A DNA stretch of 64,000 bases from Brachionus plicatilis (lineage: Eukaryota > Rotifera > Eurotatoria > Ploima > Brachionidae). Position numbers and translations under genes: made by a program. The notes under the pieces were generated by a model. The model had not been told where the DNA came from and made no database searches. It worked only from the letters and a program-made list of their open reading frames with translations. The DNA is taken from contig QEOQ01000573.1 of the NCBI GenBank assembly GCA_010279815.1, positions 202,145 to 266,144 on the forward strand, given 5' to 3'. This document shows positions 38,728 through 63,136 of the stretch, piece after piece; the stretch's first letter is position 1; each line of letters starts with the position of its first letter.

Positions 38728-39432
38728 TTAAAAATAAACTGGATTTGTGATTCCACAAGGTCCATTAACGTTCCTTCTAAAATTGCATATTTTCAACTCA
38801 GGGTCAAAAACCAAATCATTGGGACAAGTCAATATGATAATTTTGCCATTGGCGCACATTTTAAACTTTTGGCAATCGTATTCCACTACACTCAAATGAT
38901 CAGAATCATCACATTCATCCATAGACTGCTTTTTGTACATATCTGCATTTGTAGGCACATATAGATTGACAGCCATATCTTCATGTGCAGGTTCATACTG
39001 GATAGCCATTTCTTCATGTGAAGGCTCATACTGGACAGCCATTTCATCATGTTCAGGCTCATACTGGACAGCCATTTCTTCATGTTCAGGCTCATACTGG
39101 ACAGCCATTTCTTCATGTTCAGGCTCATATTGGACAGCCATTTCTTCATGTTCAGGCTCATATTGGACAGCAGGACTTGGTTCTTGTACATGCTCTGGTG
39201 TGTATTCAGTCTCTTGATTTTGATTTTCTTCAACTGGATAATAGGTTATATTGGTTATTTTGGTGTTAATGATACTGCTTGAAATTGTCTTGCTCTGGAC
39301 TGGAATTTTATTCAGAGGTGTTTTTTCTTCATACATTTCACCGTTTTCAGGCATTCCGTGTCTATACACACTACCAGCATTGATTACCAAAGCCATGGAT
39401 AAAATTTGCAAAAAAACTAATTTTTTAATCAT
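38728..39432 (-). CDS. Secreted chitin-binding (peritrophin-A type) protein with 11-residue repeats
   Basis: 234 aa, intronless. A signal peptide (about 1-20, MIKKLVFLQILSMALVINAG) is followed by a linker and six 11-residue repeats of the form VQYEPEHEEMA (about 88-154). The C-terminal chitin-binding type-2 domain has six cysteines at 174, 187, 193, 203, 216 and 226 with the expected FDPELKICNF spacing. The product is therefore likely extracellular, in a cuticle, lorica or gut matrix. The acidic Tyr/Glu/His repeat could serve metal binding or cross-linking; that is a guess. The gene lies 118 nt downstream of the carboxypeptidase gene on the same strand. Its 5-prime half is duplicated at 44280-44414 with a different repeat. 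Confidence 0.88.
   Translation of the reverse strand: MIKKLVFLQILSMALVINAGSVYRHGMPENGEMYEEKTPLNKIPVQSKTISSSIINTKITNITYYPVEENQNQETEYTPEHVQEPSPAVQYEPEHEEMAVQYEPEHEEMAVQYEPEHEEMAVQYEPEHDEMAVQYEPSHEEMAIQYEPAHEDMAVNLYVPTNADMYKKQSMDECDDSDHLSVVEYDCQKFKMCANGKIIILTCPNDLVFDPELKICNFRRNVNGPCGITNPVYF
38971..39168. repeat. 33-bp tandem repeat, six units, coding
   Basis: In-frame 33-bp units encode the 11-residue repeats of the chitin-binding protein. Neighbouring middle units are nearly identical at DNA level, so recent unit turnover is likely. Confidence 0.9.
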
Positions 39433-46376: not shown

Positions 46377-48095
46377 TCAACAAGAGTCTAAAATTTCATA
46401 AATTTTTCTGATGTCAAATTGACAGTAACCAAGTGCATTCCATTCAAAATTTTTGGTTTGATGATAAAATTGGTATTTGTACAAAAATCCATTTTTGGTT
46501 TTAAAATTAATCTCTATTTCATAACTATTTCGTTCAAAATATTTAGACGAAAAATGAATTGCTGGACTTTTTAGAAATTTTTGTTCAAAATTCACAGTTG
46601 AACTTCCATTTAAAAAACCACTTTCAATTTTCAGCAAGTCTAAAGATAGGAAAAAATCTTCATTTTCCATTAATTTGTCCAATTTAGCTTTACACTCAAG
46701 CATCTCGCTATTCAATTGAGTCAATTGATTATTTTTCTCTTGCACATGAACTCTTTTGAGAAAATAAACTCGCTTAAATGGAGCATCATACAGGTACTTT
46801 TTAATTCTGGAAAATCTCAGAGTTTTCATAAAATTTGCCCGTGCCAATTTTGACGCCTTGATACTTTTTGGTATTATAGTATTTCCTTTGCGACTCCACT
46901 GTATTTCATTTTCCAAATTGGAATTCAAGGCATTTAAAGCATCACTTACGGAACTAAAGCCTGAAATGGTTCCATCAGAGTCAGCATAACCAGCATTAAA
47001 GTTAACCCTTGGCAACGCTTTGATATTTGCGAACATATTTACTTTTAGACCAAACGCAGAGCTATCTCCGTTATTTTCTAGCTTAGCTTTGTTCAGCACT
47101 AGTTTTTCCTGGGAGTTAATTTTATCAATAGTGAACACACGGCTCAATTCTTCAGTAATGACATCAGGCTGAATATCCTCTTTTAATTCATAGGGAGAAA
47201 GGTTTTCTAGAACTTTTTCAATCGGTTCATATTGATCGATCAGCTCTGCAGTCTGAGCGATCAAATCTTGGACAAATTTGCTGCTGAACTCCCGCTCTGG
47301 CAACCGGTACTCCTCAATTATGTCAAGTTGCTGGTACAAGCTGTGCGCAAGAGACGACATTTGCTTCCTTGTCACATACACACTGTCCTTAGGACCGAAC
47401 ACTTCTTCTACTAAATGCAGCTGGTTTATTTGCTTTGCTGAAAGTATCAGCGAGTTTTGTTGGAATCCTCTGCCCTGTGCGCTAATCTCGCATTGAAGAC
47501 TAATGCCCATTTCTTCATAAATGTTCGAAGTTTTGTCAATGCTGAATTCGGCATGGAGAATTTCTTCCAGAGCCACTCTTTCCATTGATCCAGCGGGAGC
47601 TTCGAAAAAAACATCTATGGGAAATTTGGATAAATGATTTGCTTTTCCATTAAGCAAATATTTGTCGCCATTTTTATCATAAAACCTCAGGCCACACTCA
47701 AATCTGTCTGGTTTAAGAAAAATTATTTGTTTCAAATCTACTTGGATGCTGTACTTTCTCTTGGCCACTTGGACAAACAAATTTCGAATTGTATCAGTAA
47801 GCAGTTCTATGTTAATGCTGAATCCTTCATTGTTGAATATAAATATGTGTGATTGATTGATGTAAACTAGCCTTGGTATGCCAACAGAAACCCATGTTAG
47901 TCTAGAGTACTTTTCTGTGTCCTCGCTTTGGATTATTTTGTCGTTTATCGATGTTTTAAAGGCTTCCAAGAACACGCTTTCGTCGTCTATTTCGTAATCT
48001 ACGGTCAAATCGGCCAAGTCGAAAATTATGTTTTTTTTTTCCTGTTTTGACCAAGTGACAATACTTAGGAAACATAGCAAAATTAATATTTTCAT
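46377..48095 (-). CDS. Secreted lectin-like protein, cluster member 1
   Basis: 572 aa, intronless, not recognised by name. A signal peptide (about 1-17, MKILILLCFLSIVTWSK) is followed by the family signature DLADLTVDYE, EAFKTSINDKIIQS and RLTWVSVGIP. An N-terminal domain carries two conserved Cys (FECGLRFYD, LQCEIS). The central block reads VYVTRKQMSSLAHSLYQQL, EEYRLPEREFSSKFV and QPDVITEELS. A variable Gly/Ser-rich segment is followed by IQWSRKGNTIIPKSI and LRFSRIKK. The C-terminal 70 or so residues (VNFEQKFLKSPAIHF to FEWNALG) look like an H-type lectin fold, and a 14-residue extension ends in Cys. Extracellular location follows from the signal peptide; the carbohydrate-binding role is inference from the C-terminal pattern alone. 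Confidence 0.85.
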   Translation of the reverse strand: MKILILLCFLSIVTWSKQEKKNIIFDLADLTVDYEIDDESVFLEAFKTSINDKIIQSEDTEKYSRLTWVSVGIPRLVYINQSHIFIFNNEGFSINIELLTDTIRNLFVQVAKRKYSIQVDLKQIIFLKPDRFECGLRFYDKNGDKYLLNGKANHLSKFPIDVFFEAPAGSMERVALEEILHAEFSIDKTSNIYEEMGISLQCEISAQGRGFQQNSLILSAKQINQLHLVEEVFGPKDSVYVTRKQMSSLAHSLYQQLDIIEEYRLPEREFSSKFVQDLIAQTAELIDQYEPIEKVLENLSPYELKEDIQPDVITEELSRVFTIDKINSQEKLVLNKAKLENNGDSSAFGLKVNMFANIKALPRVNFNAGYADSDGTISGFSSVSDALNALNSNLENEIQWSRKGNTIIPKSIKASKLARANFMKTLRFSRIKKYLYDAPFKRVYFLKRVHVQEKNNQLTQLNSEMLECKAKLDKLMENEDFFLSLDLLKIESGFLNGSSTVNFEQKFLKSPAIHFSSKYFERNSYEIEINFKTKNGFLYKYQFYHQTKNFEWNALGYCQFDIRKIYEILDSC

Positions 48096-49617
48096 TTTTT
48101 TTTTAAATTTGGATTTTTGGTAGTATTTTAAAAAAGAAAAAAAAATATAGTAAAATTCAAAGTCTGCCTTGAATTAAACTCTTTGGTTTAAATTAGATGA
48201 TTTTTTTAAATTTAAAATTTAATTTAAAAAATGCTCTTTGTTCCATCTCAAATAAGTGTTTTTGAATGTAATTAATTTAAATAGGAAGATTTGTTTTTAT
48301 CATGAAAACACTGATAACTTTTGTAATCATTTTTTATTGAATCGATTAAAACATATTATCAAATTTTATATCAATTTGAAGATTTTTTCATTTTTGAAAT
48401 ATTTAAAAAAAATATATTTTTTACATAGATGCAATTTTTGAATTTTGAATTTTTTTATTTTATTGATTATAAATATATTTTAAATAAATTAAAATTAAAA
48501 ATTTACTAAATAACTTAATAAGTTTCCGATTATTAAAAAAATTCTAAATTGTTTTTAGAGCTAAAAAATGTTGCCAATTATTTTAGAAATTTATATCAAT
48601 CAATATTTTCTTTATCATTTAAAACAAAAAATCAATATAATTTTAAATTTTAAAATTTTCTAAAATAGATTAGAAAAATTTATTTTATAAAAATGGCATA
48701 TAATGGTATCTAAAAAATCAAACTTGGGTTACCATTTTTTTCAAATAACTTCAGTATTCCTGATATTGCTCGATATGATGTATTAGTAGGACTCATTTAG
48801 ACATACTTCACTTATTAATTGCATTCGAAAATTTAAACAAAAAATAATCAACTTAAGAAAATCATTACTTCCAGGTATAAATTACAAGACTTTTCTCTAA
48901 ATTAAATTCTAAGAAATTATAGACAGTCTTGTTAAAGAATGAACACCAAAATAACTATGAATTGAAGGATTACGGGGAAAGGATTAATTAACTCAACTTA
49001 AAAATTATACATAATAGTAGTAATAATTAAACATAATAGAAAAAAATTGTTTTTCCTCAAAAACAAGAGGATCAGAGGTTCATAAAAATTCGGAGATATA
49101 CCAAGAAAATTATTTATTTTTCTATGTAAAAATATTGAACAGACTTAAATTTCTTTTTATTGAAATCTACATTTTTATTTATTCTTGATATTTTCTCTCA
49201 CACTTATCGTTTATAAATTTTGTAGATACAGTTTAATTTTATTTTATTTTAAATTCTTTAGGCTGACAAAAAGTTACCCTCAAACTATTTAACTATATTA
49301 ATCAAATTAGAAGCAATTAAAATTATATTATATATTATTTCTAATATATTTTCTAATATTTATTGTGTAATATTTCAGAAAAATTAAAAAAAAAACTTAT
49401 GAATATCCAAGATAAAAATTATCGGGAATATTGTTAAAAAAAAATAGAAAATTTAAAAATGAAAATGTAAAAACTTTAAAACTTTTTTTTCTTTTTTTCA
49501 TTATTTCTTTTAAAATATGATTACTATGCTAATCTTTAAAATTAATTGTAGACAGACCGATAAATTTGAAGTTGAAACTTCATCGAATATGAAATAACTA
49601 CCAATAGGGTATTAAAA
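48096..49617. other. Spacer between member 1 and the LTR element
   Basis: AT-rich with no supportable gene. 49368-49470 resembles the hairpin repeat at 9242-9391. Confidence 0.4.
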
Positions 49618-49950
49618 TGTCAAATAAACTATTATATTTAATAAGCTTTTATTCTATACAAATAAATGAAAGTGGCCACTCTAAGTAACCACGCTAATTA
49701 GAGAACAAAATAGAGAGAAGAAGAGAGAGAGAGAGAAATATAATAAAAATAAAATAATGTTTTTTCTTTCATTAGCTGGTAGCTAGTTTATAAATAAATT
49801 AATTATAGTGCCGTGTGCAAACTTATAAAACTACAAACAACTTCCAAAGGATTGCCAGTTGTTTGTTGTTTGATGATACATTTGTTTAATGATGTAAGTA
49901 CGACGTTGCTGATGTAAGCTCCATGTTGTTGTTGATCTTATATCACGACA
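49618..49950 (-). repeat. 3-prime LTR of the Ty3/gypsy-like element
   Basis: 333 bp beginning TGTCAAATAAAC and ending ATCACGACA, so it has TG..CA ends and a short TGTC/GACA inverted terminus. A purine-rich tract (AAGGGGAAGATGAAG on the minus strand) abuts it internally, as a polypurine tract should. It contains an AG-rich microsatellite near 49711-49738. I found no second copy at the other end of the element. Confidence 0.65.
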
Positions 49951-50094
49951 CTTCATCTTCCCCTTGCTTAATTTGGAACCATACGAGATTCAAATCACAA
50001 TTGATTAATTAGATCAAAAAAATAACATTTGAGTATATAAATTATTATTTACAAAATTTGATTAAATAAATTTCAATGATCTCAATATTCCCAT

Positions 50095-50472
50095 TTATCC
50101 ATGCGAAACCGGTTTTCCAAAGAAATCAGGTTTACGCCTAATCCTCTTTGCTCTATCATTCCTTTTCTCATTGCCATCTTCATCTCCTTTACATTCACCC
50201 TCTTCTTCTTTTGTACTTCCACTATCTTCCTCTTCATTACTTAAACCGTTTTCACCTCTAGTATTCATGTCCTCGCTCTCTTCAGGACTTGCTTTTCTAT
50301 CAATTCCAGTACCTTCGTCCCGTGTTTCATAGTCCCCGCTACTACCATCACTCACTGTAACTTCAGTTGTCTCCATTTTAGTATTAGTATCTTTTTCCTT
50401 TACTTCTGTCGACTCAACTGGTTCTGTGTCAGCATGGCTTTGGATTTGTTGATCTGGGACCTGCTCAGGAAT
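50095..50472 (-). pseudogene. Acidic C-terminal tail of pol beyond a stop codon
   Basis: The same frame as the integrase ORF continues past the TAA at 50473 for about 125 codons: a Glu/Asp/Ser-rich stretch, then a basic AKRIRRKPDFFG end, typical of the C-terminus of Ty3/gypsy pol. The internal Met at 50376 is probably not a true start. Confidence 0.6.
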
Positions 50473-52566
50473 TTAGCTTCTAGCAAATTTTCTGAGTATT
50501 GGCTTAGGACTCTGGTCACTAAATGATACCTCTTGAGTAAAATACCTTTTATAAAATGACGAGTTTCTTACGATTTGATGACCCTCTCTTTGAGCAGTCA
50601 CCATTGAACCATTAATTCCCACTATCTTATATGGTTTCGGATCAAAAATTGGATCAGATTTATACGCTCTTCTCCACTTGACTAAAACTAAATCATTTGT
50701 TTTAAAGTTAGAGACACACGACTTATCTCTTTTATCATTGTAGCGCTTAATTTTTGCCTTTGACTCAGCGTCTTTTCTTCTTGCTTTTAAATGATTAAAA
50801 TCTTTTTGGCTTGAATCAGTTTTTGAAGGATATAATGGTAACTTTGAGGTAGTAACATCGGCTTGGAATATCAGTTTCATTGGTGCTACCCCTGTAGAAG
50901 AATGTGGAGTTGCTCTGTAGTTCCGTAGAAACTCTGTAAGCTCAACCTCACATTCTTTTTGACTCAATGCAGAACTACGTATCACCTTACCAAGGTTTTT
51001 CATAAACCGCTCCGCCATACCATTCGCTCTTGGCCTTAGTGGTGTAATTTTTCGATGCTTAAAACCGAGTTGCTTAGCAAAATTATTGAATTTATTGGAA
51101 TTAAAAGGAGGTCCATTGTCTGTTTTTACCATGTCTGGTATGCCAAAAGTTGAGAACACATCATTTAACCCCGATGTAACTATCTGAGCTGATGTACTAG
51201 ATATTACCTTTACCAAAGGGTACCTTGAGTACTCACAAATAATTACCATCAAATACTTTCCACATCTGAGTGGACCGTAAAAATCTACGCTCACAACTTT
51301 CCATGGACCACTTGGTATTTCCGTATCAGCCTGTGGTTCAAATTTTTTCAAGTTAGTGTTTATCTGGCATTTGTGGCAACACTTAACCAAAGTCTCAACC
51401 TGGCTGTCAATGCCTGGAAACCAAACATGGCTTCTTAATAGTTGCTTAGTTTTCACTACACCCAAATGACCACCATGGGCAATTTGAATAACATGCTTTT
51501 GAAATTTAAATGGAACCACTATTCTGCTACCCTTTAATACCAGACCATCTCCTGTAACAGATAGTTCATCTTTAATCTTATCAAAACCTCCAATTTTCCC
51601 TTGAGCCCTACCTTGAATTGATTTGACCAGTTCTATTAAAATAGGATCTTCTTTGGTTGCTCGAACCAGCTGATCTTTACTAATTGCCTGTGGAACTGCC
51701 ATATCAGTTACCATATTAATATAAGCTTCTGTTAATCGTTCATATTGCATATCAGCAGGTTCAATTGGGTTTCTTGAAATATATTCAGCAATATTGTATG
51801 CGCCTGGTTGATGCTTCACTTTGAATTTATATGGTAGGAGTCTTAAACACCATCTTTCTATACGAGCCTTTGGACGTGATCTTACATTGCCAAATATCAA
51901 CTCTACAGCTTTATTGTCTGTGATGATGTCAAATTCCTTACCATAAATATACAGATGAAATTTTTCGCATGCCCATACTACAGCCAATGCTTCTCGTTCA
52001 ACTTGAGAATATCTTTGCTCAACCTGTGATAGACAACGGCTGGCATACATAATTATTTTCTTGACAGCTGGATTTTTAACATCATACTGGGCCATTACTG
52101 CTCCTACACCAAAAGGACTTGCATCTACTGTAAGTTCAGTGCGACGCTCTGGATCGAAATAACTTAAAGCTTTGTCACAAATAGACTTTTTAAGGTTTGC
52201 CAACGCTTCTTGATGCTTCGGCAGCCATTTCCACTCAGCTTTCTTTTTGACCAGCTCTCTTAGTGGCTCTGTGATTGTGGAAAAATTAGGTATAAATCGA
52301 GCACAATAATTGGCTGAACCAAGCAAACTCCTCACCTCCTCAACTGTTGAAGGTGATTTAGCATTGACCAACGCCTCATACTTCTTAACATCAATTGCTA
52401 TCCCTTTGTCCGAAAAATTTAGTCCAAAGAACTTTAGACTAGTTTTACAAAACTCGCATTTTTTTTTATTGACAGTCAGTCCTGATTGCTCTAGTCTCCT
52501 GAAAACAGCTTCCAGTCTATCATCATGCTCTTTTTTAGTGGTACCAAATAACAATAATGTCATCAC
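50473..52566 (-). pseudogene. Ty3/gypsy pol: end of RT, RNase H and integrase
   Basis: About 697 codons. RT thumb and connection come first, then RNase H with VDASPFGVG (Asp about 148), EREALAVVWA and ITDNKA. The integrase zinc finger reads HGGHLGV..CCHKC (about 364-400), and the catalytic triad is visible as SVDFYGP, KTDNGPPF and ANGMAERF (Asp, Asp, Glu about 428, 483, 519). It starts in a different frame from gag-pro-RT with a short overlap, so it is the downstream half of a broken reading frame. Confidence 0.88.
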
Positions 52567-54316
52567 TGAAGTTTAAAGCTCCATCGATTCCAGCAAGTAC
52601 CAACTCAATTGTTTTTTGAAATATTTCCGAAGCCGCATTAATACCGAAATTTAATCTTTTATAACGAAATACCCCCATATGAGTAGCAAAGGCAGTGATA
52701 TACCTTGAACTCACATCCAAAAGTAGCTGGTGGTATCCAGAACGAAGATCAAATTTAGATATAAATTTAGCTCCATTAAGTCTAACTGCTAAGTCTTCAA
52801 CGGTTGGACACGAATGTCTAGACCGTAAGATAGCTTTTTTAGCTTCTCGCGCATCTGTGCAAATTCTTATTTCACCAGGCCTTTCCGGTTTAGGAACTGG
52901 AACTATGGGCGAAATCCATGGAGTTTGACCTTCTACTGGCTCAATGACATCTTCGTCAAGCAATTTTTTGATTTCCGATTCTACAAGAGGTCTTAAATGA
53001 AATGGCACAGGTCGTAATCTCTGTTGGATAGGTTTTATAGACTCATCAATGTGAAGCTTAATCTCATGGTTCTTTAGTAATCCAACCTTATCTGAAAATA
53101 AAGATGGATACTTCCTTACATAAGAGTCATATACTGGGTCTCTTTTTGGACTAGAAATGTTTACTTGATTAATTACATTCACGATTCCCAGCTCCACTGA
53201 CGTACGGTAGCTTAACAAGTTACCAAAATGTCCACCAGTTACAACAAACTCTATAGACTTGTAAACTCCATTACATTTTATCCTTGTATGAAACTTGCCC
53301 AGAACCTGAATACATTGCTCTTGTCCATAACCATAAATTTTAAGGCTCGACATATCAAGTCTTTGCTTCATTTTCAATTTCTTGAAAGTACTCTCGTCCA
53401 TTATGTTAACAGCTGAGCCAGTGTCAACTGTAAACCTAACATCTAACCCACATACCATCAAGGTTATCATAGGCATGAACCAATTTTTTAAAAACTTGGA
53501 AACATTTTTTACCATGACTCTCCAAACATTACTTGATTCTTCATCTGAATCTTCTTCATGGACTTGGTAAACATGTCTTCTACCTTTACCTTTAGATTTA
53601 CAACATTTTGCAAAGTGGTTGAGTTGTCCACACTTCCGGCACTCTTCTCCTTTTGCAGGACATTTTGAATCATGTGGATATTTTCCACCACAATAGAAAC
53701 ATGTTTTCTTCCTTTCCAATGACTTTTTATTGGGGTAACTTGCTCTCCCATTTTCACTTCTATTGTTACTCGTGCTAGGTCCTGCTTTGACTTGATTAAC
53801 TTCTGTTTTCAAAACGGTTTGCTCATTGAACTTTTTGAATTCTTGTAGCTGAAGGTTCACTGTCTCTTCAAGCTTTCCAAGTTTAATCAACTCTTCTAAA
53901 GAGCATAAAATATCTTTCTCTAGACATTTTCTTTTAAGTGAATCCGATGAACATCTATGCAAAATCTGAGTAGCGATTTCATTGCTCTCTGACTCACCAA
54001 AAGCACAGCTTTTTGCCTTATCCTTTAACCTTGTCACAAACTCTTCAAATGGTTCTCCCGGGAACTGGTACAAATCCCGAAAATGAAGAACATTTACTTT
54101 TGTATTAAACTTTGGTTTGAAATGGTTAGTAAGCTTCTTTTTGACACCCTCATAGTCGTCTTTGTCGTTTTTATAGTCTTTATAAATACGCCCTAAACCA
54201 GTACCACCAAAGAATGTTAAATAATCAATCTTAACCTTATCTTCTTTAACACCTTTGATTGACAACAACATGTCTAACCTTTCCTCTAACTTCAGAATAC
54301 AAGCTCTAAAAACCAT
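52535..54316 (-). pseudogene. Ty3/gypsy gag, protease and first part of RT
   Basis: About 593 codons. Gag capsid-like region, then two zinc knuckles at about 206-239 (CFYCGGKYPHDSKC and CRKCGQLNHFAKCC), the protease with DTGS at 298-301, and RT with FDLRSGYHQ (522-530) and the catalytic FSDD (583-586), where the frame is lost. Gag and pol are fused in one frame. The N-terminus looks truncated. Confidence 0.85.
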
Positions 54317-55913
54317 AACTTAAGAGATATATGAAAAAAATGAAAAATGTCACTTATAAATATTTTTCAATAAATAATTATATTTTCTCAATTAACACAC
54401 CTTAAATTTATTTTTAATTATTATTTTTTTTAATTTGAAGTCCATCTAATGTTACCTTTGTCCAGGTAATTTCCAGGCATGGTACAAGACTCAAACATGA
54501 ATATTATTTAACATCTGGTTTAATTTTTTGTGTTTGAATTACAAAATGTATTGAATGTAGAAATAAAATTGAAAAAGTGCGATGTTACAAATAAAAGAAT
54601 AATTTTAAGTTTATTTCAAGCATTTTAATATTTGAAATTAAACTTTTTAGTAAAATAGAGCGAGTTTAATTTTAATTTGAAAAGCTGGAAAAAAAATATT
54701 GAAATTTCTTTTATCTAATTAATTTAACTAAATAAATCAATTATTATTAATAAATGTGATTTCGGCAACTTGAACTTCATGATCATGATCAAATGATCAA
54801 AATTTAATATTTTATAATCTTAAAAAAAATTGTTCAAATTAGCTTTTTTAATATTTTTTTAATTAAACATAAGATGTTTAGTATTTTAATTGAAAAAAAA
54901 AACAAATCTTTTATCTCTGATTGATTTTTAATTGATTTTTCTAAAATCTTTATTTGAAAAAATTAAAGACAAATTTAAAATCCATATCTAAGTATCCAAA
55001 TTATGGCTTTAAATGATATTTTAATACTAATAAAAATATATTACGTCGAAAAAAAGTTTTATTTTGTCTTGCAAAATTTCAAAATATCGATTAAGATTTT
55101 AATTTACTTTAGATAAAAATTCAAATAATTTTCCATCTAAGCATAGATTAAACAAATCATGTTTAATAAAGTTTAGTAATTTTTTATTAAAAAATTGAAA
55201 AAAAATACTATTTTATTTAAATCAAAAACTAAAAATTTTGATTTGAAATTTAAATTTGATCATGAACTTCAATTTGCCTGTGATTTCCTAATACTGTTTT
55301 TTGTTTCAAATATTTTTTCGCAAACATTTTGATATCGAAAACTTAGTTTAGATTTTGGACAGATACTGCAGCCTATTCAATTTTTTACATCAATCAATTT
55401 CAATTAATTTAAAAACTTTTTTATTTTGAATAAATATTAACTCTTCAAACAAGTGTTTCTCATTTATAATTTTTTTTAATTAAGATGAACTATATTGATA
55501 GTTTGGAAATTTTTTAATACTTTTAAAGATGACGAATTACTTCTTCCCAAAAAAAGGTCAATGTGAGATGATAATACGACTCAAACATTAATTCTCAATT
55601 TTTTGATAAAAAATCACAAAATATTTAAAAAATATTTGAAACATCGCGTTTTTTGATGTTTTTTCAACATTGGATACATTTTGTAATTCAAACACTAAAA
55701 TTAAGCCATCTATAGATACATTTGTTTTGTGAGTCAAATTGTTATTTAAAATTTTTATGATTCACAAGATTTTAATTTTGTAATAAAAATATAAATAAAT
55801 TAATTTAAATAAATAAATTTAATTTTTTTGGACCAGTAAAAATATTTTTTTTTAAATTATTTTATTGAAATAACAATTTTAATTTTTAGTTTAAAAGAAA
55901 AAAAGAGAAGTTT
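54317..55913. other. Spacer with nested inverted-repeat elements
   Basis: No gene. 54518-54558 and 55668-55708 are inverted copies sharing TGTTTGAATTACAAAATGTA, bounding about 1.2 kb. Inside lies a miniature element (54764-55278). Confidence 0.55.
54764..55278. repeat. Miniature inverted-repeat element, GGCAAATTGAAGTT family
   Basis: The left end is GGCAACTTGAACTTCATGAT and the right end is TGATCATGAACTTCAATTTG followed by CC, a clear terminal inverted repeat. The interior resembles 5040-5895. No ORF. Confidence 0.7.
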
Positions 55914-57707
55914 TTAAACACCGATGGCTAGCCAATTTACTTTAGCTTTTATTATTGAATCTTCTATAAAGCGAAAGAAGCGATAATTATACACACCAGC
56001 ATAGTGATAATCATACTTACTAGCAAATTCTACTAGTTTAACAATTTTTAGAACTGGATAAATTTGTATGCGTGCAACAGGATGTTCGAACAACATGAAC
56101 GATTGAAAATTTAATATTACAATAGGTTCTTGACTAAACGACTGATCAAATTTTCTAACATATATAAGCGACTGATTAAATCTTTTAGCATCTAAATTTT
56201 GATCATACATTCTTTGATCTTCATATTCCGAATTAGAGATTAAATCGAAGTTGCCTTCTTCATAGAAAATTTTAGCAGTTTTATTTCTATTTTGTTCAGG
56301 CCATTCAACAATTGTATCCAATATTGAATTATAACTTTGAATCAGCCGTAAGGAATTTCTTAAATCCATTAATTTACTATTTGACTTTTTATCCAAGGCA
56401 ACTTGTTTGACTTTCAATGAAAAATTTCGTCTAAAAGACGCTTCGCTCACTATTTTTTTGATGCGAGAAAACTTGAGGTCTTTTTGAAAATTGGCTTTCT
56501 CTAATTTAGAAGCTCTGATACTTTTTGGCACAATCATGTCACCTTTGCGCATCCATTCAATCTCATTTTTGTCATCATTGTTTATTTGATTCAGAGTGTC
56601 GGACAATTTGGAGCCGAACTCTTCATCTCCATTGTTTGACTTTGATCCATATTTGGCATTTAAAGACGCTGGAATTTTATATAACGAGAAACTAATACCT
56701 CCTCCTATGCTAAAGTCCGATGAATTGGTCATTTTTGAGTATTGGTCGTTGTTTAGTTTTATTTTTTCTGTCTTTCCGTCCGAAACAACTTCCATAAGCT
56801 TGCTTAGCTCTTCTTTTATTTGATCTGGCTTTAAATCTTGGCCAATGTCATAGCTGGACATGTGCTTAAGAGCTTCATCAATAGGCACATGCTCAAAATT
56901 GGACATTATGGCTAAATTTTCCACAAACTTGCTGCTGAACTCTTTTTCTGGCATCTGGTATTCTTCAAATACGTTCATGTGCATAAACAATTCGTGGGAC
57001 AGTGATGCAAGCTGGTGTCTGGTCACATATACTTTATCGCCTGAACCAAATATTGAATCGATTAGATTCAAATTGCTTATTTGTCTCCCGGTAACAGTGA
57101 ACACATTTTCTTTGCTAGAATAACCTCTGGATTTAATTTCGCAGTGTATTTCTAGATCCTGATCGGATAAGAATCTTTGCTCTATTAGCTCTCTTTCAAT
57201 TGATTTTACTGGTGCCTCAAAAGATACGTACAAAGGAAACTTAAAGAGATTCAAAGATTTGCCTTTAATTGTGTATATTTGATAGTTTTGGTCATACAAG
57301 TTGATTTCACACTCAAAACTTTTGGGTACCAAAGTAACTATTTGAGCAGGTTCAACTTTGATTTTGTATTTTTGAAGTATCATTTGACAAAAATTATCTC
57401 TTAGTTCACCATTCAATAATTCTACTTTTATAAAAAAGCCATTCCAGTTGAATATGGAGGAATTTCTGGTGAAATCGACAATTTTTGGATAGCCCATTGA
57501 CACCCATGTAAGCCGACCATACTTGTCCGAATCACCACTTTGAATAATGGCGTCATTGCTTGATGTTTTAAATGCTTCTATCTGAACTATTTGGTCATCT
57601 GTTTCAAAATCAATGGTCAAATCGGCCAAATCAAACACAATATTCTCGTTTTTGCTAATGCTGTGAGTGACAGTCATACAAAAGCTTAGGAAGAGGAAAA
57701 ATTTCAT
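55914..57707 (-). CDS. Secreted lectin-like protein, cluster member 2
   Basis: 597 aa from the ATG at 57707. I chose this start over the upstream in-frame ATG at 57869 because it gives a signal peptide (MKFFLFLSFCMTVTHS) aligned with the other members. Family features: FDLADLTIDFE, EAFKTSSNDAIIQS, RLTWVSMGYP, the two Cys (FECEINLYD, IHCEIKS), VYVTRHQLASLSHELF, EEYQMPEKEFSSKFV, KPDQIKEELSK, a Ser/Gly/Asn-rich segment, IEWMRKGDMIVPKSI and LKFSRIKK. The last 90 or so residues (RKFDQSFSQEPIVIL to VNWLAIGV) fit an H-type lectin pattern. It is closest to member 4 in the N-terminal half. Confidence 0.85.
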   Translation of the reverse strand: MKFFLFLSFCMTVTHSISKNENIVFDLADLTIDFETDDQIVQIEAFKTSSNDAIIQSGDSDKYGRLTWVSMGYPKIVDFTRNSSIFNWNGFFIKVELLNGELRDNFCQMILQKYKIKVEPAQIVTLVPKSFECEINLYDQNYQIYTIKGKSLNLFKFPLYVSFEAPVKSIERELIEQRFLSDQDLEIHCEIKSRGYSSKENVFTVTGRQISNLNLIDSIFGSGDKVYVTRHQLASLSHELFMHMNVFEEYQMPEKEFSSKFVENLAIMSNFEHVPIDEALKHMSSYDIGQDLKPDQIKEELSKLMEVVSDGKTEKIKLNNDQYSKMTNSSDFSIGGGISFSLYKIPASLNAKYGSKSNNGDEEFGSKLSDTLNQINNDDKNEIEWMRKGDMIVPKSIRASKLEKANFQKDLKFSRIKKIVSEASFRRNFSLKVKQVALDKKSNSKLMDLRNSLRLIQSYNSILDTIVEWPEQNRNKTAKIFYEEGNFDLISNSEYEDQRMYDQNLDAKRFNQSLIYVRKFDQSFSQEPIVILNFQSFMLFEHPVARIQIYPVLKIVKLVEFASKYDYHYAGVYNYRFFRFIEDSIIKAKVNWLAIGV

Positions 57708-58022
57708 TTTGAAAATTGTAAAAAGTGAATAGATAATGATTTTTAAGAATTGTAAATAAAATTTTTCAATTAAATCTGAAAAAATGTTTTGAATTTTGTT
57801 ATCTAATTTTTTTCTTTTCTGGTTTTGTTTAAGGAAATACATAATTTTTTTTAGAATAAAAGTCCTCAAAGAATTAGAGGTAAATTAATTTTCTTTTTTT
57901 TAAAAAGCAAAAAAATTTATTCAGTTATAAATTAATCACTAATTTTTTGATAGTTCAATTTTAGTGAGACAATTTAATATCAAAATTTTTTAAAATCTTT
58001 TTTAAACTAATTTTTGAATAGA

Positions 58023-58094
58023 TCCGTGATAGTATAGTGGTGAGTATCCCCGCCTGTCACGCGGGAGACCGGGGTTCAATTCCCCGTCACGGAG
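58023..58094 (+). tRNA. tRNA-Asp (anticodon GTC)
   Basis: 72 nt with a complete cloverleaf: acceptor TCCGTGA/TCACGGA (58023-58029 and 58087-58093), discriminator G at 58094, anticodon stem CCCGC/GCGGG (58049-58053 and 58061-58065), loop CTGTCAC with GTC at 58056-58058, and a T arm with GGTTCAATTCC. No intron. A TTTTTT run follows shortly as a Pol III terminator. It lies between cluster members 2 and 3. Confidence 0.97.
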
Positions 58095-58631
58095 TTCTTT
58101 TTTGACCAAAAAAAAAAATTTTTGACTAAAAAATTTATAGATTAAAAAATTTAAATATTTTTTTGAAAAAATCTTATTTCATGAAAAATTTTAAAATCAA
58201 AAAATTAAAAATTTTACATTACAATTTTTGAGAAAAAAACAATTTTTATTATTTTTATAGGTCAAAATAAAAAAAAATAAAATTTAAAAATTGATTTTTT
58301 GTATTAGAATTTAAATGTACCAAAATAATAAAAAAATATTGAAAAGATAAAACAATTATCACACAAGAAATAATTAAGAATTGATAAATATAAATAAAAA
58401 AAAATTCAAAAATAAAAATTTTAAACGCACAAATAACTTTTTTAATCTTAAACTTTTTCAATTGATTTTTGTGGTTGTTGTAAATAATATTAAAGTTAAT
58501 TTACTTTTTATTAGTTATTTAAATTGTCAATTTTTAAGTAATAAAAAAAAAAAAATTTTTATTTTTTATTTTTTTTCTAATTAAAATTAATTTCAAAAAA
58601 ATTTAATCTCTTTTTTTCAACTGATCTGGAG

Positions 58632-60347
58632 CTAAGAGCCAAGAGCGAACCATTCAATCTCAAGATAATTTTTAATATCATAATTTTCCTCACTTTCCAC
58701 TTCATAAATGCTCAAATCCAATTTGCACTCAATTGAGATATTGGTAATTATTTCATCCAAAATTTCATAAGATTCAACCGGTCCTACCATTCCAACCGAG
58801 TACAAAATTTTTGGTTTATTTTTAAACCCAGTCAACTTTGCTGTCAAAGGAATGCTTCTGTTGGCAAAAGTGACAAACCATTTTCCATTTTGAATGTTTA
58901 AAACTGAATCAAAATCGTTTTCAATAATTGATTTAGCTTTTTCTAAATAAATGTCTTTTAAAATAAGAGTTCTTTCAAGCAGATTTCTGTCATTGGCACT
59001 AATTTCATCAAATAATTTTGTTCTGAATGAAAAAACGCGACTAAAAGGAGCATCATAATATTCGCGTCTAATGCGAGAAAACTTTAGGTCATTGTTCAAC
59101 TCAGACTTGACCAATTTGGAGACTTTTATTCTTCGCGGCACAATCATTCTACCTTTTTTCACCCATTCTACATCATTTTGATCATAATTGTTGAGCTCAT
59201 TCAATTGTTCCGAATAGCTTGAGTTCGAGTCTTCCCAATCTTTGGCCTTGGATTTAGCAAAGTCTCTAGTAGAACCTACTTTGATGAAGGGAATTTTAAC
59301 AGAGCCTGATGAACCTATATTCATTGAAGAATTGGCGTAGGATTTATTGGACAAACTGTCATTTAGTGCTAAAAAATCTTTTGTGCCTCGTTTTTTCAAG
59401 ACAAAAGTTTTGCTCAATTCCTCTTTGATTACATCAGGCTTCAGATCTTCGGCTAAACTAAATGAAGACAACTGAGACAAAGCTTTGTCAAAAGAAGTAT
59501 ACTGATTTATGTACACAGCTGTTTGTTTTAAAAATTCTGTGATAAAACTTTGCTCAAATTCTTTCTCTGCTATTTGATATTCTTCAATGATATTTAATTT
59601 TTGATAAAGTTCCTGTGAAAGTCTATTTAGTTGGTTTCTGGTGACGAACACTTCCGATTCAGGACCAAATATATCATCGGCTAAATTGAGCTGATTCATT
59701 TGCTTTGATGATAAGATGAGTGTGTTTTCGCGATAAGCTTGGCCTTGGGAATAAGCCTCACACTTTATTTCCAAATCTGGATCATTATTATCTTTTACTA
59801 GTCTTTTTTCCAAAGCTTTGCGTCCAGTTGACAAATTGTTGTCTGGATAAGGAAATGATACTCGGATAGGAAAGGTGTTCAAATCCCTTGCTTTGCCATT
59901 TAAAAAGAATTTATTTCCATCATCGTACAATTCAATTTGGCATTCAAATCTACCTGGCTTTAGAGTTAATACTTGATCTACAGATACAGATATGTTATAT
60001 TTTTTTTTGATGGCATCTACCAATCTTTTCTTATTTTCCTGGTTTAAAAGCTCAACAAAAATATCAAATCCATCTGGTCTAAAATTGAATATTTCTGCTT
60101 GAGGTAAAATTTTTGAAATAGTCGGATTTCCAATTGAGACCCAGTTCAATTGAGAGTATTTTTCATTGTCTTTGCTTTCTATTATTCGATCATTGCTAGC
60201 TGTTTTGTAAGCTTCCAACAAGACAACTTTTTTTCCCTCTTCATATTCAAGAGTTATATCAGCTAAATCAAAGACTACATCGTTTGTAGCCAATGTGTGA
60301 CAATTTGTCAAAATCAGAAACAAAAAAGTCAATATTAAATTTTTCAT
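58632..60347 (-). CDS. Secreted lectin-like protein, cluster member 3
   Basis: 571 aa, intronless. Signal peptide (about 1-21, MKNLILTFLFLILTNCHTLA), then FDLADITLEYE, EAYKTASNDRIIES and QLNWVSIGNP. The paired Cys (FECQIELYD, IKCEAYS), VFVTRNQLNRLSQELYQKL, EEYQIAEKEFEQSFI, KPDVIKEELSK, a Ser-rich variable segment, VEWVKKGRMIVPRRI and LKFSRIRR follow. The C-terminal 88 residues end in LEIEWFALGS, the H-type-lectin-like tail. All motifs line up with members 1 and 2, so it is presumably functional. Confidence 0.85.
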   Translation of the reverse strand: MKNLILTFLFLILTNCHTLATNDVVFDLADITLEYEEGKKVVLLEAYKTASNDRIIESKDNEKYSQLNWVSIGNPTISKILPQAEIFNFRPDGFDIFVELLNQENKKRLVDAIKKKYNISVSVDQVLTLKPGRFECQIELYDDGNKFFLNGKARDLNTFPIRVSFPYPDNNLSTGRKALEKRLVKDNNDPDLEIKCEAYSQGQAYRENTLILSSKQMNQLNLADDIFGPESEVFVTRNQLNRLSQELYQKLNIIEEYQIAEKEFEQSFITEFLKQTAVYINQYTSFDKALSQLSSFSLAEDLKPDVIKEELSKTFVLKKRGTKDFLALNDSLSNKSYANSSMNIGSSGSVKIPFIKVGSTRDFAKSKAKDWEDSNSSYSEQLNELNNYDQNDVEWVKKGRMIVPRRIKVSKLVKSELNNDLKFSRIRREYYDAPFSRVFSFRTKLFDEISANDRNLLERTLILKDIYLEKAKSIIENDFDSVLNIQNGKWFVTFANRSIPLTAKLTGFKNKPKILYSVGMVGPVESYEILDEIITNISIECKLDLSIYEVESEENYDIKNYLEIEWFALGS

Positions 60348-61954
60348 TGTTTAAACTTTTAAGAAAAAAATAAATAACATTTTTATTCTAATATTTAAAA
60401 GAATTTTTTAATTAAATCTAATTCATTCCGTATGATTCGAGAAAATAAAATGAATTTTTGTTTTTTTTTAATTAAGCTTGTGATGAGAGATAATTTAAAA
60501 TAATTATAGTAATTTTTTGATATTTATCTTAAATTTTAATAATTTTAATATGTTTTAATATGGTTTAGCTTCTATTGTATTTATTAACTGCTTGCCAGTT
60601 CTTTCTTTTTGGAAACATACTTTTGAATTTCAAAAAATTTACATGATTTTTTATTATATTTAAACTTGTTTCTGCTTCTCCTAAAATATTTCTTAATTTG
60701 ATTTTAAAAAATATTATTTCCTCATTGTCAAAGCATCGGTCTAATAATCGAAAGGAACTAGAAATGGTGGCATTCCAATGACGACAAACATTTTAAAATG
60801 AAAAAAAAAAGAATTTTAAAGTCTTTCAAGGATAATTAACAAGCTAGTGCCACTATATAAGACTGATTAACACTTTATTTATTTAAATTCTTTATTAAAG
60901 TATTCATTCAAATTTTAAATTATTATAAAATTAAAAAATATTTATATAAAAATTTGAATCCAAAATTATTTGAAAAAATTTAACAGCAAAATATTCAAGT
61001 AAAAAATTATTGTAAAAATTCTAAAAAAATCAAATAAATGTTATTTAAAATTGACAGTTTAAATGTTGGAAAATTCAAAATTGATTTATTAATGATAAAG
61101 CAGTTTATAAGTAGAAATATTCAAATTTTTTTTTCACCATCTTTCGATTTTGCCATCGGTTCATATAAATTATTGCTAGTCCTTAATATTTCAATTTTCT
61201 TGAGTCATTTTTATCAGTATTTCTTTTAAATTTAAAGGTGAGTTATAATAAAACAAACTTTTAAAAGCTAATATAATCATTCTTTCAAATATTCTATGCT
61301 GAAACGAATAAAAACCATACTTTTCTAAAATTTTTTTTATTTATTATCAAGTCAAACCAGACTTTGACTAAATGACTCATGTACAACACTGAAAAAAAAT
61401 CTAAAAATTATTAGTTCCGCATGTTTTATTTAGAATTTTTTTGGTTGCATTTTTAAGACCCTAATCTTTTCATCAAGCTTCATTTTCTCTTCTCTCAATT
61501 AGCTTATCTTTAGCCAAAGAACAAGTTTTGGATATCATTGAAACCATTAACTTTTTGTGAAACTTTGGATTCGATTTAATAAACTTTAAAACTTTATTTA
61601 ACTGTTTTATTTCTAAAAAAGCTTAAAGTCCAAAAGCTAAAACTTTAAACCATTATTACCTTAATATATCCAAGCTTAATGTACTCCGAAGATTTTTAAC
61701 ATCTTTTACAGACTGAATGATTTGTTGCTTTTAAAACTGATATCAAAAATGGTTGATGAATAAAAATATTCTATTTTTTTATCAATCAGAATTTGAATTT
61801 TTTTGAATTTAGAAAAATTTTTTTTAGTTAAAAAAGAAAGTAATTTTTGGCAGTCTTTAGATATTTTCTTTAAATTTGCTAAAAAAAGGGTAAAAGCAAT
61901 TTAAAAATTCAGTTTTTAAATTTTTATTTAAAATTAAGAAAATTAAAGATTTAT
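60348..61954. other. Spacer between cluster members 3 and 4
   Basis: AT-rich with no gene. Carries the hairpin-repeat copy at 60827-60890. Confidence 0.45.
60827..60890 (+). repeat. Dispersed CAAGGTTAATCA hairpin repeat, copy D
   Basis: Reads CAAGGATAATTAACAAGCTA, then GTGCC and GACTGATTAACACTTT with an ATTTATTTAAATT tail. The most diverged of the four copies. Confidence 0.6.
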
Positions 61955-63136
61955 TTAATAGCCAATTGCAAACCAACGAATTTCAAGAGTGTCAAAAAGA
62001 TAAGCTTCTGGACCAAGTGGGCCACAAGCAAACAGAACAAAATTTTGCCAAAAATAAAAAGGAACGAAAAACTCAACTTGTAAATCCATACTGAAGTAGT
62101 CGGGAGAAATTATTTCAGTTAAAACATCATATCGAAATGAAAGACGTCTAGTGTCAAAATTTATTTTTTTAATAGAATAAAATAATTTAGGAGGCTCATA
62201 AAATGATTGTGAAAAATTTACTCTGTAATTTCCCAATTTTTTTACATGACTTGCAAAATAGTTGTAATGTTCGATTTCAAATGTCATCTTAATAACACCA
62301 GATGAAAATTTAATAGTTCTATCAGAAAGTCTGGTATAATCTGAGACATCAAAATTTGAATTTAACCTTCCATTCATTTGTTCAATAGAACCAATAACTT
62401 TATTTATATTCTTAGAATGAAATAAATCCTTCACATTTAAAGGGTTTAAAAATCGAAAATATTTAATCTTAACAAAATATTTTCTCTTTAAAATATCAGT
62501 AACAGATAAAAAAAAGTCATTCTTTGAAAACTCTAATTCGACGGACTCAGCCTCAAGATAACATTGAATAATTAAATCTTGATTTGAATAAAAATATCTT
62601 TCAAACAAAATTCTTTTGGTTGTATTTAGTGGAACATCAAAATTGACTAAAAATGGTGATTTTCTCATTTTAAAACCAGATCCTTCAATTGTATGAATTT
62701 TGTTTTTATGATCCAACAAGTTAATTTCACATTTAAATCTATGAGGGACCACATCAACTATTTGTGAAGGTTCAACTTTAATTTTGTATCTTTGAAGAAT
62801 CATTTGGCAAATTTTATCTCTAATCTGATTGTTTAAAAATTCAACGTTTATATTAAAACCAAAACGATTAAATATGGAAGAATTTCTGTGGAAATCAACA
62901 AGTTTTGGATAACCCAATGAAAACCATGTCAAAATATCATAAAAATGGAAATCAGCACTTTGTATAATTTGGTCATTGCTTGAAGCCTTAAATACTTCTA
63001 TTTGGACTATTTGGTCATCTATTTCATAATCGATGACAAAATCGACACGATTAAACACAACTTTTTCATTTCTGCTAGAACTAAGATTTTGTAATAAAAA
63101 AGTTAAATAAAAAATAAATATTAGGAAAAATTTCAT
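61955..63136 (-). CDS. Secreted lectin-like protein, cluster member 4 (short form)
   Basis: 393 aa, intronless. Signal peptide (MKFFLIFIFYLTFLLQNLSS), then the N-terminal domain closely matching member 2: DDQIVQIEVFKASSNDQIIQS, QMILQRYKIKVEPSQIV and FKCEINLLD. The DLADLT motif is altered to NRVDFVIDYE. The whole central block (VYVTR..EELSK..KFSRIKK, over 200 residues) is absent. After a unique middle, the H-type-lectin-like C-terminus is kept (VNFSQSFYEPPKLFY to LEIRWFAIGY). The frame is intact, so it is probably a genuine shortened paralogue rather than a pseudogene. Confidence 0.8.
   Translation of the reverse strand: MKFFLIFIFYLTFLLQNLSSSRNEKVVFNRVDFVIDYEIDDQIVQIEVFKASSNDQIIQSADFHFYDILTWFSLGYPKLVDFHRNSSIFNRFGFNINVEFLNNQIRDKICQMILQRYKIKVEPSQIVDVVPHRFKCEINLLDHKNKIHTIEGSGFKMRKSPFLVNFDVPLNTTKRILFERYFYSNQDLIIQCYLEAESVELEFSKNDFFLSVTDILKRKYFVKIKYFRFLNPLNVKDLFHSKNINKVIGSIEQMNGRLNSNFDVSDYTRLSDRTIKFSSGVIKMTFEIEHYNYFASHVKKLGNYRVNFSQSFYEPPKLFYSIKKINFDTRRLSFRYDVLTEIISPDYFSMDLQVEFFVPFYFWQNFVLFACGPLGPEAYLFDTLEIRWFAIGY

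Follow-up and report, generated by a model that had tools for sequence, protein, structure and literature searches.

A 64,000-nucleotide stretch of the genome of the rotifer Brachionus plicatilis (contig QEOQ01000573.1, positions 202,145 to 266,144; the window in the following) carries four similar genes, A to D, which raise the question of what kind of protein they encode and how the copies came to differ. A preliminary description, made from the sequence alone, had seen here a tandem cluster of intronless, secreted proteins with an unnamed N-terminal domain and a lectin-like C-terminus, and had suggested a fast-evolving recognition system. Its observation was confirmed in part, and its interpretation was partly supported. 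The proteins consist of two parts, a common base that we call the N-module and a C-terminal tip related to H-type lectins or, in some members, to phage collar domains, and base and tip differ sharply in their divergence between gene copies. With moderate confidence we regard the genes as members of a rotifer family of probably secreted recognition proteins, in which varied tips on the shared N-module are predicted to bind glycans.

Four long open reading frames (ORFs) were found on the minus strand exactly where they had been described, A at 46377-48095, B at 55914-57869, C at 58632-60347 and D at 61955-63136. Each is open from a hydrophobic N-terminus to the stop and does not require an intron, which bears out the single-exon claim as far as it can be read from the DNA alone. 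The signal peptides are putative, since no dedicated program was used, and secretion is considered probable because of these hydrophobic N-termini. Gene A encodes 572 amino acids (aa) with a hydrophobic start, an N-module and a weak H-type-lectin-like tip (46428-46601, about residues 499-556). The ORF of B comprises 651 aa, but the likely ATG at 57707 gives 597 aa, as in the paralogue J; its N-module spans 56250-57635 (about codons 25-486) and its tip 55917-56249, starting at the break at codon 487. Gene C (571 aa) has its N-module at 59004-60287 (residues 21-448) and its tip at 58635-58898 (residues 484-571). It is the orthologue of the hypothetical B. plicatilis protein BpHYR1_039935, with 98% identity across 94% of the length. 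Gene D is a 393-aa short form, in which sequence alignment revealed a shortened N-module, its N-terminal part, at 62306-63055, followed by an H-type lectin tip at 61958-62305 (residues 278-393).

The genome searched comprised 102.9 Mb in 173 contigs, and the window lies on its contig C32. Reading of the flanking DNA added E (L022 988-2718, plus strand), F (L022 from 4927 onward, truncated at the 5' end), G (L023 401-1522), H (L023 7167-8375, likely start 8324) and J (L026 281-2098, plus strand), so that the proposed local expansion amounts to nine loci on one contig. The genes do share one strand inside the window, but the cluster goes on for about 42 kb, and two of its members lie on the plus strand. 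Its tandem order is interrupted between A and B by a Ty3/gypsy-like element (50473-54316, minus strand) with two overlapping long ORFs for aspartyl protease/reverse transcriptase and RNase H/integrase, which does not belong to the lectin family. Further members are K on contig C40 (L027 2701-4764), a split copy on C27 (L028 2998-3867 and 5631-6740) and a divergent 539-aa ORF on C2 (L029). The halves of the C27 copy lie about 1.76 kb apart and show no GT donor at the expected break, which points to an insertion or an unusual intron. By query, genome matches numbered 15 for C (C itself included), 13 for K, 12 for G, 9 for the second half of C27 and 14 for the database relative P0003. Gene C also retrieved 19 database proteins at E ≤ 0.001, and the family resemblance therefore exceeds what chance would give.

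The N-module comprises about 420 aa in the long forms. Both cysteines noted earlier are conserved (in the numbering of C, Cys136 in 20 and Cys196 in 21 of 22 aligned rows, the remaining rows being gaps). The VYVTR, ELSK and W..KG blocks are present in A, B and C; D lacks them, and the part from VYVTR to W..KG is missing throughout a short subfamily consisting of D, F, G and H. In its N-terminal part, G is nearest to B and J (53% identity), compared with 27-35% for A, C, E, K and C27. As claimed before, the N-module matches no Pfam family above cut-off. Gene C found no PDB sequence at E ≤ 1, the N-module had no match in 50,697 phage records (E ≤ 1e-5), and its structure models, of moderate confidence, gave no convincing fold. 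Among the matches listed, three of 21 database relatives carry an organism name (P0001, P0002 and P0021), and all three are from Brachionus. The literature listings searched contained no work on this protein family. The N-module is a well-bounded family so far without a name. In one relative, P0016 (407 aa), the N-module is followed by a cysteine-rich C-terminus that resembles neither lectin nor collar tips and gave no Pfam match; it may represent another class of tip or a wrongly annotated end.

For the tips, the lectin assignment of the preliminary description held. Pfam H_lectin (PF09458, cut-off 24 bits) was found above cut-off in D (residues 305-353, 25.8 bits), F, G, H and C27, whereas E (20.1 bits) and A (13.4 bits, residues 499-548) stayed below it, and the search returned no row for B, C, J, K and C2. 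An HPA-like beta-sandwich has six strands. The modelled tip of C likewise shows six strands, and its top structural match was Helix pomatia agglutinin (HPA). Five residues, F27, P31, W85, A87 and G89, are invariant in all ten aligned tips. The WxAxG end holds for B, C and D; in A the motif (WNALG) starts at residue 552 of 572 and is followed by 16 residues. In the D-type tips (D, F, G and H) the arginine of an FRY motif, which presumably has a role in sugar contact, is invariant and aligns with an arginine of SLL-2 and discoidin II. At the equivalent place of the tip alignment no arginine was present in A, C, E and C27, and B and J have one nearby in an ambiguous alignment.

The preliminary description had overlooked a second class of tip. 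It had also missed that the cluster extends past the window, that D is built on a shorter plan and that a near-identical base gives way abruptly to a divergent tip. The database protein P0006 combines an N-module with a phage tail Collar domain (PF07484) at 37.0 bits, above the Pfam cut-off. The CDGR motif of this tip occurs in seven of 33 family proteins (K, P0006, P0010, P0012, P0013, P0017 and P0021; P0021 is the HYR1 orthologue of K). K itself shares 97% identity with a B. plicatilis protein named 'tail fiber' by NCBI. Its C-terminal 224 aa match 26 of the 50,697 phage records; among the 12 of these listed, most are annotated as tail fibre (lowest E 2e-11, identity 27-34%). K also matches two solved chains, 6ov6 and 9qgo. 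It remains below cut-off for the Pfam collar and Gp10_C models (Gp10_C 18.2 bits, cut-off 27) and is absent from the four Collar places of the genome-wide search. Those four (L031-L034) all lie on contig C95 and are separate from the N-module family. Since N-modules occur with lectin tips and with collar-like tips, the base has come to carry at least two classes of tip. The lectin and the collar-like tips are both related to domains that terminate phage or pyocin fibres, and the structural matches of the modelled lectin tip included the ends of a pyocin fibre and of tailspikes.

In recent duplicates, base and tip show different histories. In D/F the N-module is 96% identical with a synonymous divergence (dS) of 0.045, and the tip 48% with a dS of 0.605. 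In B/J the values are 98% and 0.025 for codons 1-481, and 51% and 0.585 from codon 482 on. In G/H they are 87% and 0.059 for an N-module stretch that was counted to D codon 277 and so extends past the break, and 43% and 0.422 for the tip. In 40-codon steps, G/H showed 95-100% identity up to codon 200 and 85% in codons 201-240. Divergence, which had been attributed to the Gly/Ser-rich middle, is therefore not confined there but lies mostly towards the tip in recent duplicates. The change is abrupt. In a breakpoint scan it fell near codon 281 in D, 251 in G and 487 in B, in D and G slightly upstream of the start of the Pfam lectin match (305 and 294, respectively). In each of eight pairs, 0 of 2000 permutations matched the observed statistic. 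Tip distances are star-like. In the six pairs among D, F, G and H they are about equal (dS 0.35-0.61; nonsynonymous divergence, dN, 0.43-0.49), even though the N-modules of these pairs are either nearly identical or clearly different. High DNA identity spans the 5' flank for about 400 bp in B/J and about 260 bp in G/H, and in D/F begins at codon 38, the start of F. Beyond the stop it is lost over the first 100 bp or so, and farther out the 3' flanks are unrelated. Because dS jumps as well, amino-acid selection alone cannot be the cause, and either recombination or a local increase in mutation rate must be invoked. These pairs provide a clean natural comparison of evolution in base and tip.

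According to the explanation that we prefer, the conserved N-module would serve as the common base of all members, and local duplication would have produced the nine loci. Recombination, most likely gene conversion, would homogenize the N-module in recent pairs, in two of the three together with the 5' flank, and each gene would retain a tip of its own. Recognition, most likely of glycans, would fall to this tip, which is usually an H-type lectin and sometimes phage-collar-like, as its lectin and fibre-tip folds suggest. The germline would in this way encode a series of soluble lectins in which a single base bears many different tips, and these lectins would probably be directed at microbial or other surface glycans. 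Since HPA forms trimers (according to passages of PMC5793061), a trimeric or hexameric assembly seems plausible. A role in defence or surface recognition would fit the defence role proposed for H-type lectins of other invertebrates in parts of PMC11377244 and PMC8878817. More tentatively, and with some doubt, the family may be seen as a modular system of recognition in an animal lineage, similar in construction to a phage tail fibre, with a base in concerted evolution and diversifying fibre-type tips as a germline repertoire for immunity or mate recognition.

The same breakpoints and the same dS contrast would be expected if the tip of a diverged paralogue had been recombined onto a recently duplicated, unconverted base, and the two tip classes on one base in fact require at least one tip exchange in the history of the family. 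We nevertheless consider this rather unlikely for the recent pairs. By tblastn (E ≤ 0.001), no tip-only stretch was detected in 114 kb of C32, although very divergent tips could escape such a search; the extra fragments are small pieces of N-module (L023 1827-1962, 2388-2576 and 8963-9205). Unrelated 3' flanks and star-like tip distances are what homogenization of the base in old genes would produce. Base conversion fits best because such tip-only donors are lacking in these 114 kb.

Several results weigh against our preferred explanation of a converted base with distinct, glycan-binding tips. Pfam detects no lectin in B, C or J. The tip profile matched PDB sequences weakly (SLL-2 at E 0.011, unrelated proteins at 0.03), and with the four D-type tips discoidin II came at 0.5, behind an unrelated protein at 0.25. 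A heptad test favoured a coiled-coil neck in three of seven segments, but not in C, P0003, P0004 or P0007. P0021, the HYR1 model of K, has no hydrophobic start. F lacks a signal peptide; its homology begins at codon 38, preceded by in-frame stops. A weak family match on contig C9 is interrupted by a stop, and further fragments contain stops. The older pairs C/E, D/G, D/H, F/G and F/H also pass the permutation test, which thus demonstrates uneven divergence and not its cause; uneven constraint could suffice. Tip dN/dS lies at 0.71-1.27, and for none of the seven pairs does the interval exclude 1. Positive selection on the tips is therefore neither shown nor excluded, and the earlier idea of a fast-evolving recognition system remains no more than plausible. 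Finally, the tips are stable between the present genome and the HYR1 assembly (C 80/83 residues, with the last 18 unaligned; K 186/187), as are the N-modules (C 445/455, K 462/480). The diversity seen is therefore one between paralogues and not between these assemblies. The conserved tips of C and K speak against a locally raised mutation rate at these two genes.

A dN/dS around 1, the missing 5' end of F and the several fragments with stops could also indicate a weakly constrained lectin family in the course of expansion and decay, with neutral drift of the tips and no repertoire function. We judge this unlikely, as the tip frame is open through to the stop in all nine C32 loci, the five invariant tip residues are retained, and two assemblies agree closely in the tips of C and K. 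Moreover, drift alone leaves the dS step near the tip unexplained. Collar domains of phage fibres form trimers, as does HPA, and the C-terminal domains might accordingly serve to assemble proteins that build the cuticle, the lorica or the egg coat. We regard such a role as very unlikely, since a domain used for assembly would not usually be the place where divergence is concentrated. Gamete or mating lectins, for instance the male receptor of the female mate recognition glycoprotein, are a long shot. Brachionus recognizes mates via a surface glycoprotein, for whose unnamed male receptor strong positive selection has been predicted (passages of PMC3495898). However, no membrane anchor was noticed by eye (without dedicated transmembrane prediction), and the tips of C and K hardly differ between the assemblies.

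Compared with known systems, the rotifer tips resemble H-type lectins (HPA, SLL-2 and the discoidin C-terminal domain) in fold and family match, but they end a long unrelated N-module and occur as divergent paralogous tips. Gastropod HREPs and FREPs (immunoglobulin plus H-type lectin or fibrinogen; parts of PMC8878817) likewise join a constant region to a recognition domain; for the rotifer N-module, Pfam gave no match to immunoglobulin, and the ORFs are single-exon. Phage tail fibres and their collar (PF07484, Gp10_C) are similar to the tip of K and of database relatives, but none of the 50,697 phage records matched the N-module at E ≤ 1e-5, and the rotifer genes lie in an animal genome and have hydrophobic N-termini. 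For Brachionus MMR-A and MMR-B, parts of PMC2746195 and PMC3495898 report a signal peptide, no introns found and concerted evolution, all of which are also proposed here for the lectin family. MMR proteins consist of tandem, predicted helical repeats of 87-92 aa. In contrast, none of nine lectin-family proteins gave an off-diagonal self match at E ≤ 10.

In a survey that covered six rotifer genomes, no H-type lectin was reported from its three Monogononta, and missing gene models were suspected (parts of PMC8878817). In contrast to that result, such domains do exist in monogononts. The present genome has five family members that exceed the Pfam threshold, of which four lie in a single array, and one more H-type lectin on contig C20, and the database name of the B. 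calyciflorus relative P0002 already mentions the domain. The set is small enough for expression and glycan-array testing. The C20 lectin domain (44.6 bits) appears to end a multi-piece gene (L030; C20:409000-416500, minus strand) that resembles a matrix metalloproteinase, with a PG_binding_1 match and the motif HELGHALGLDHS in frame. Elsewhere in the window, a 234-aa ORF (38728-39432, minus strand) begins with a hydrophobic segment and contains tandem EEMAVQYEPEH repeats; its C-terminus is rich in cysteine and by eye resembles a chitin-binding domain.
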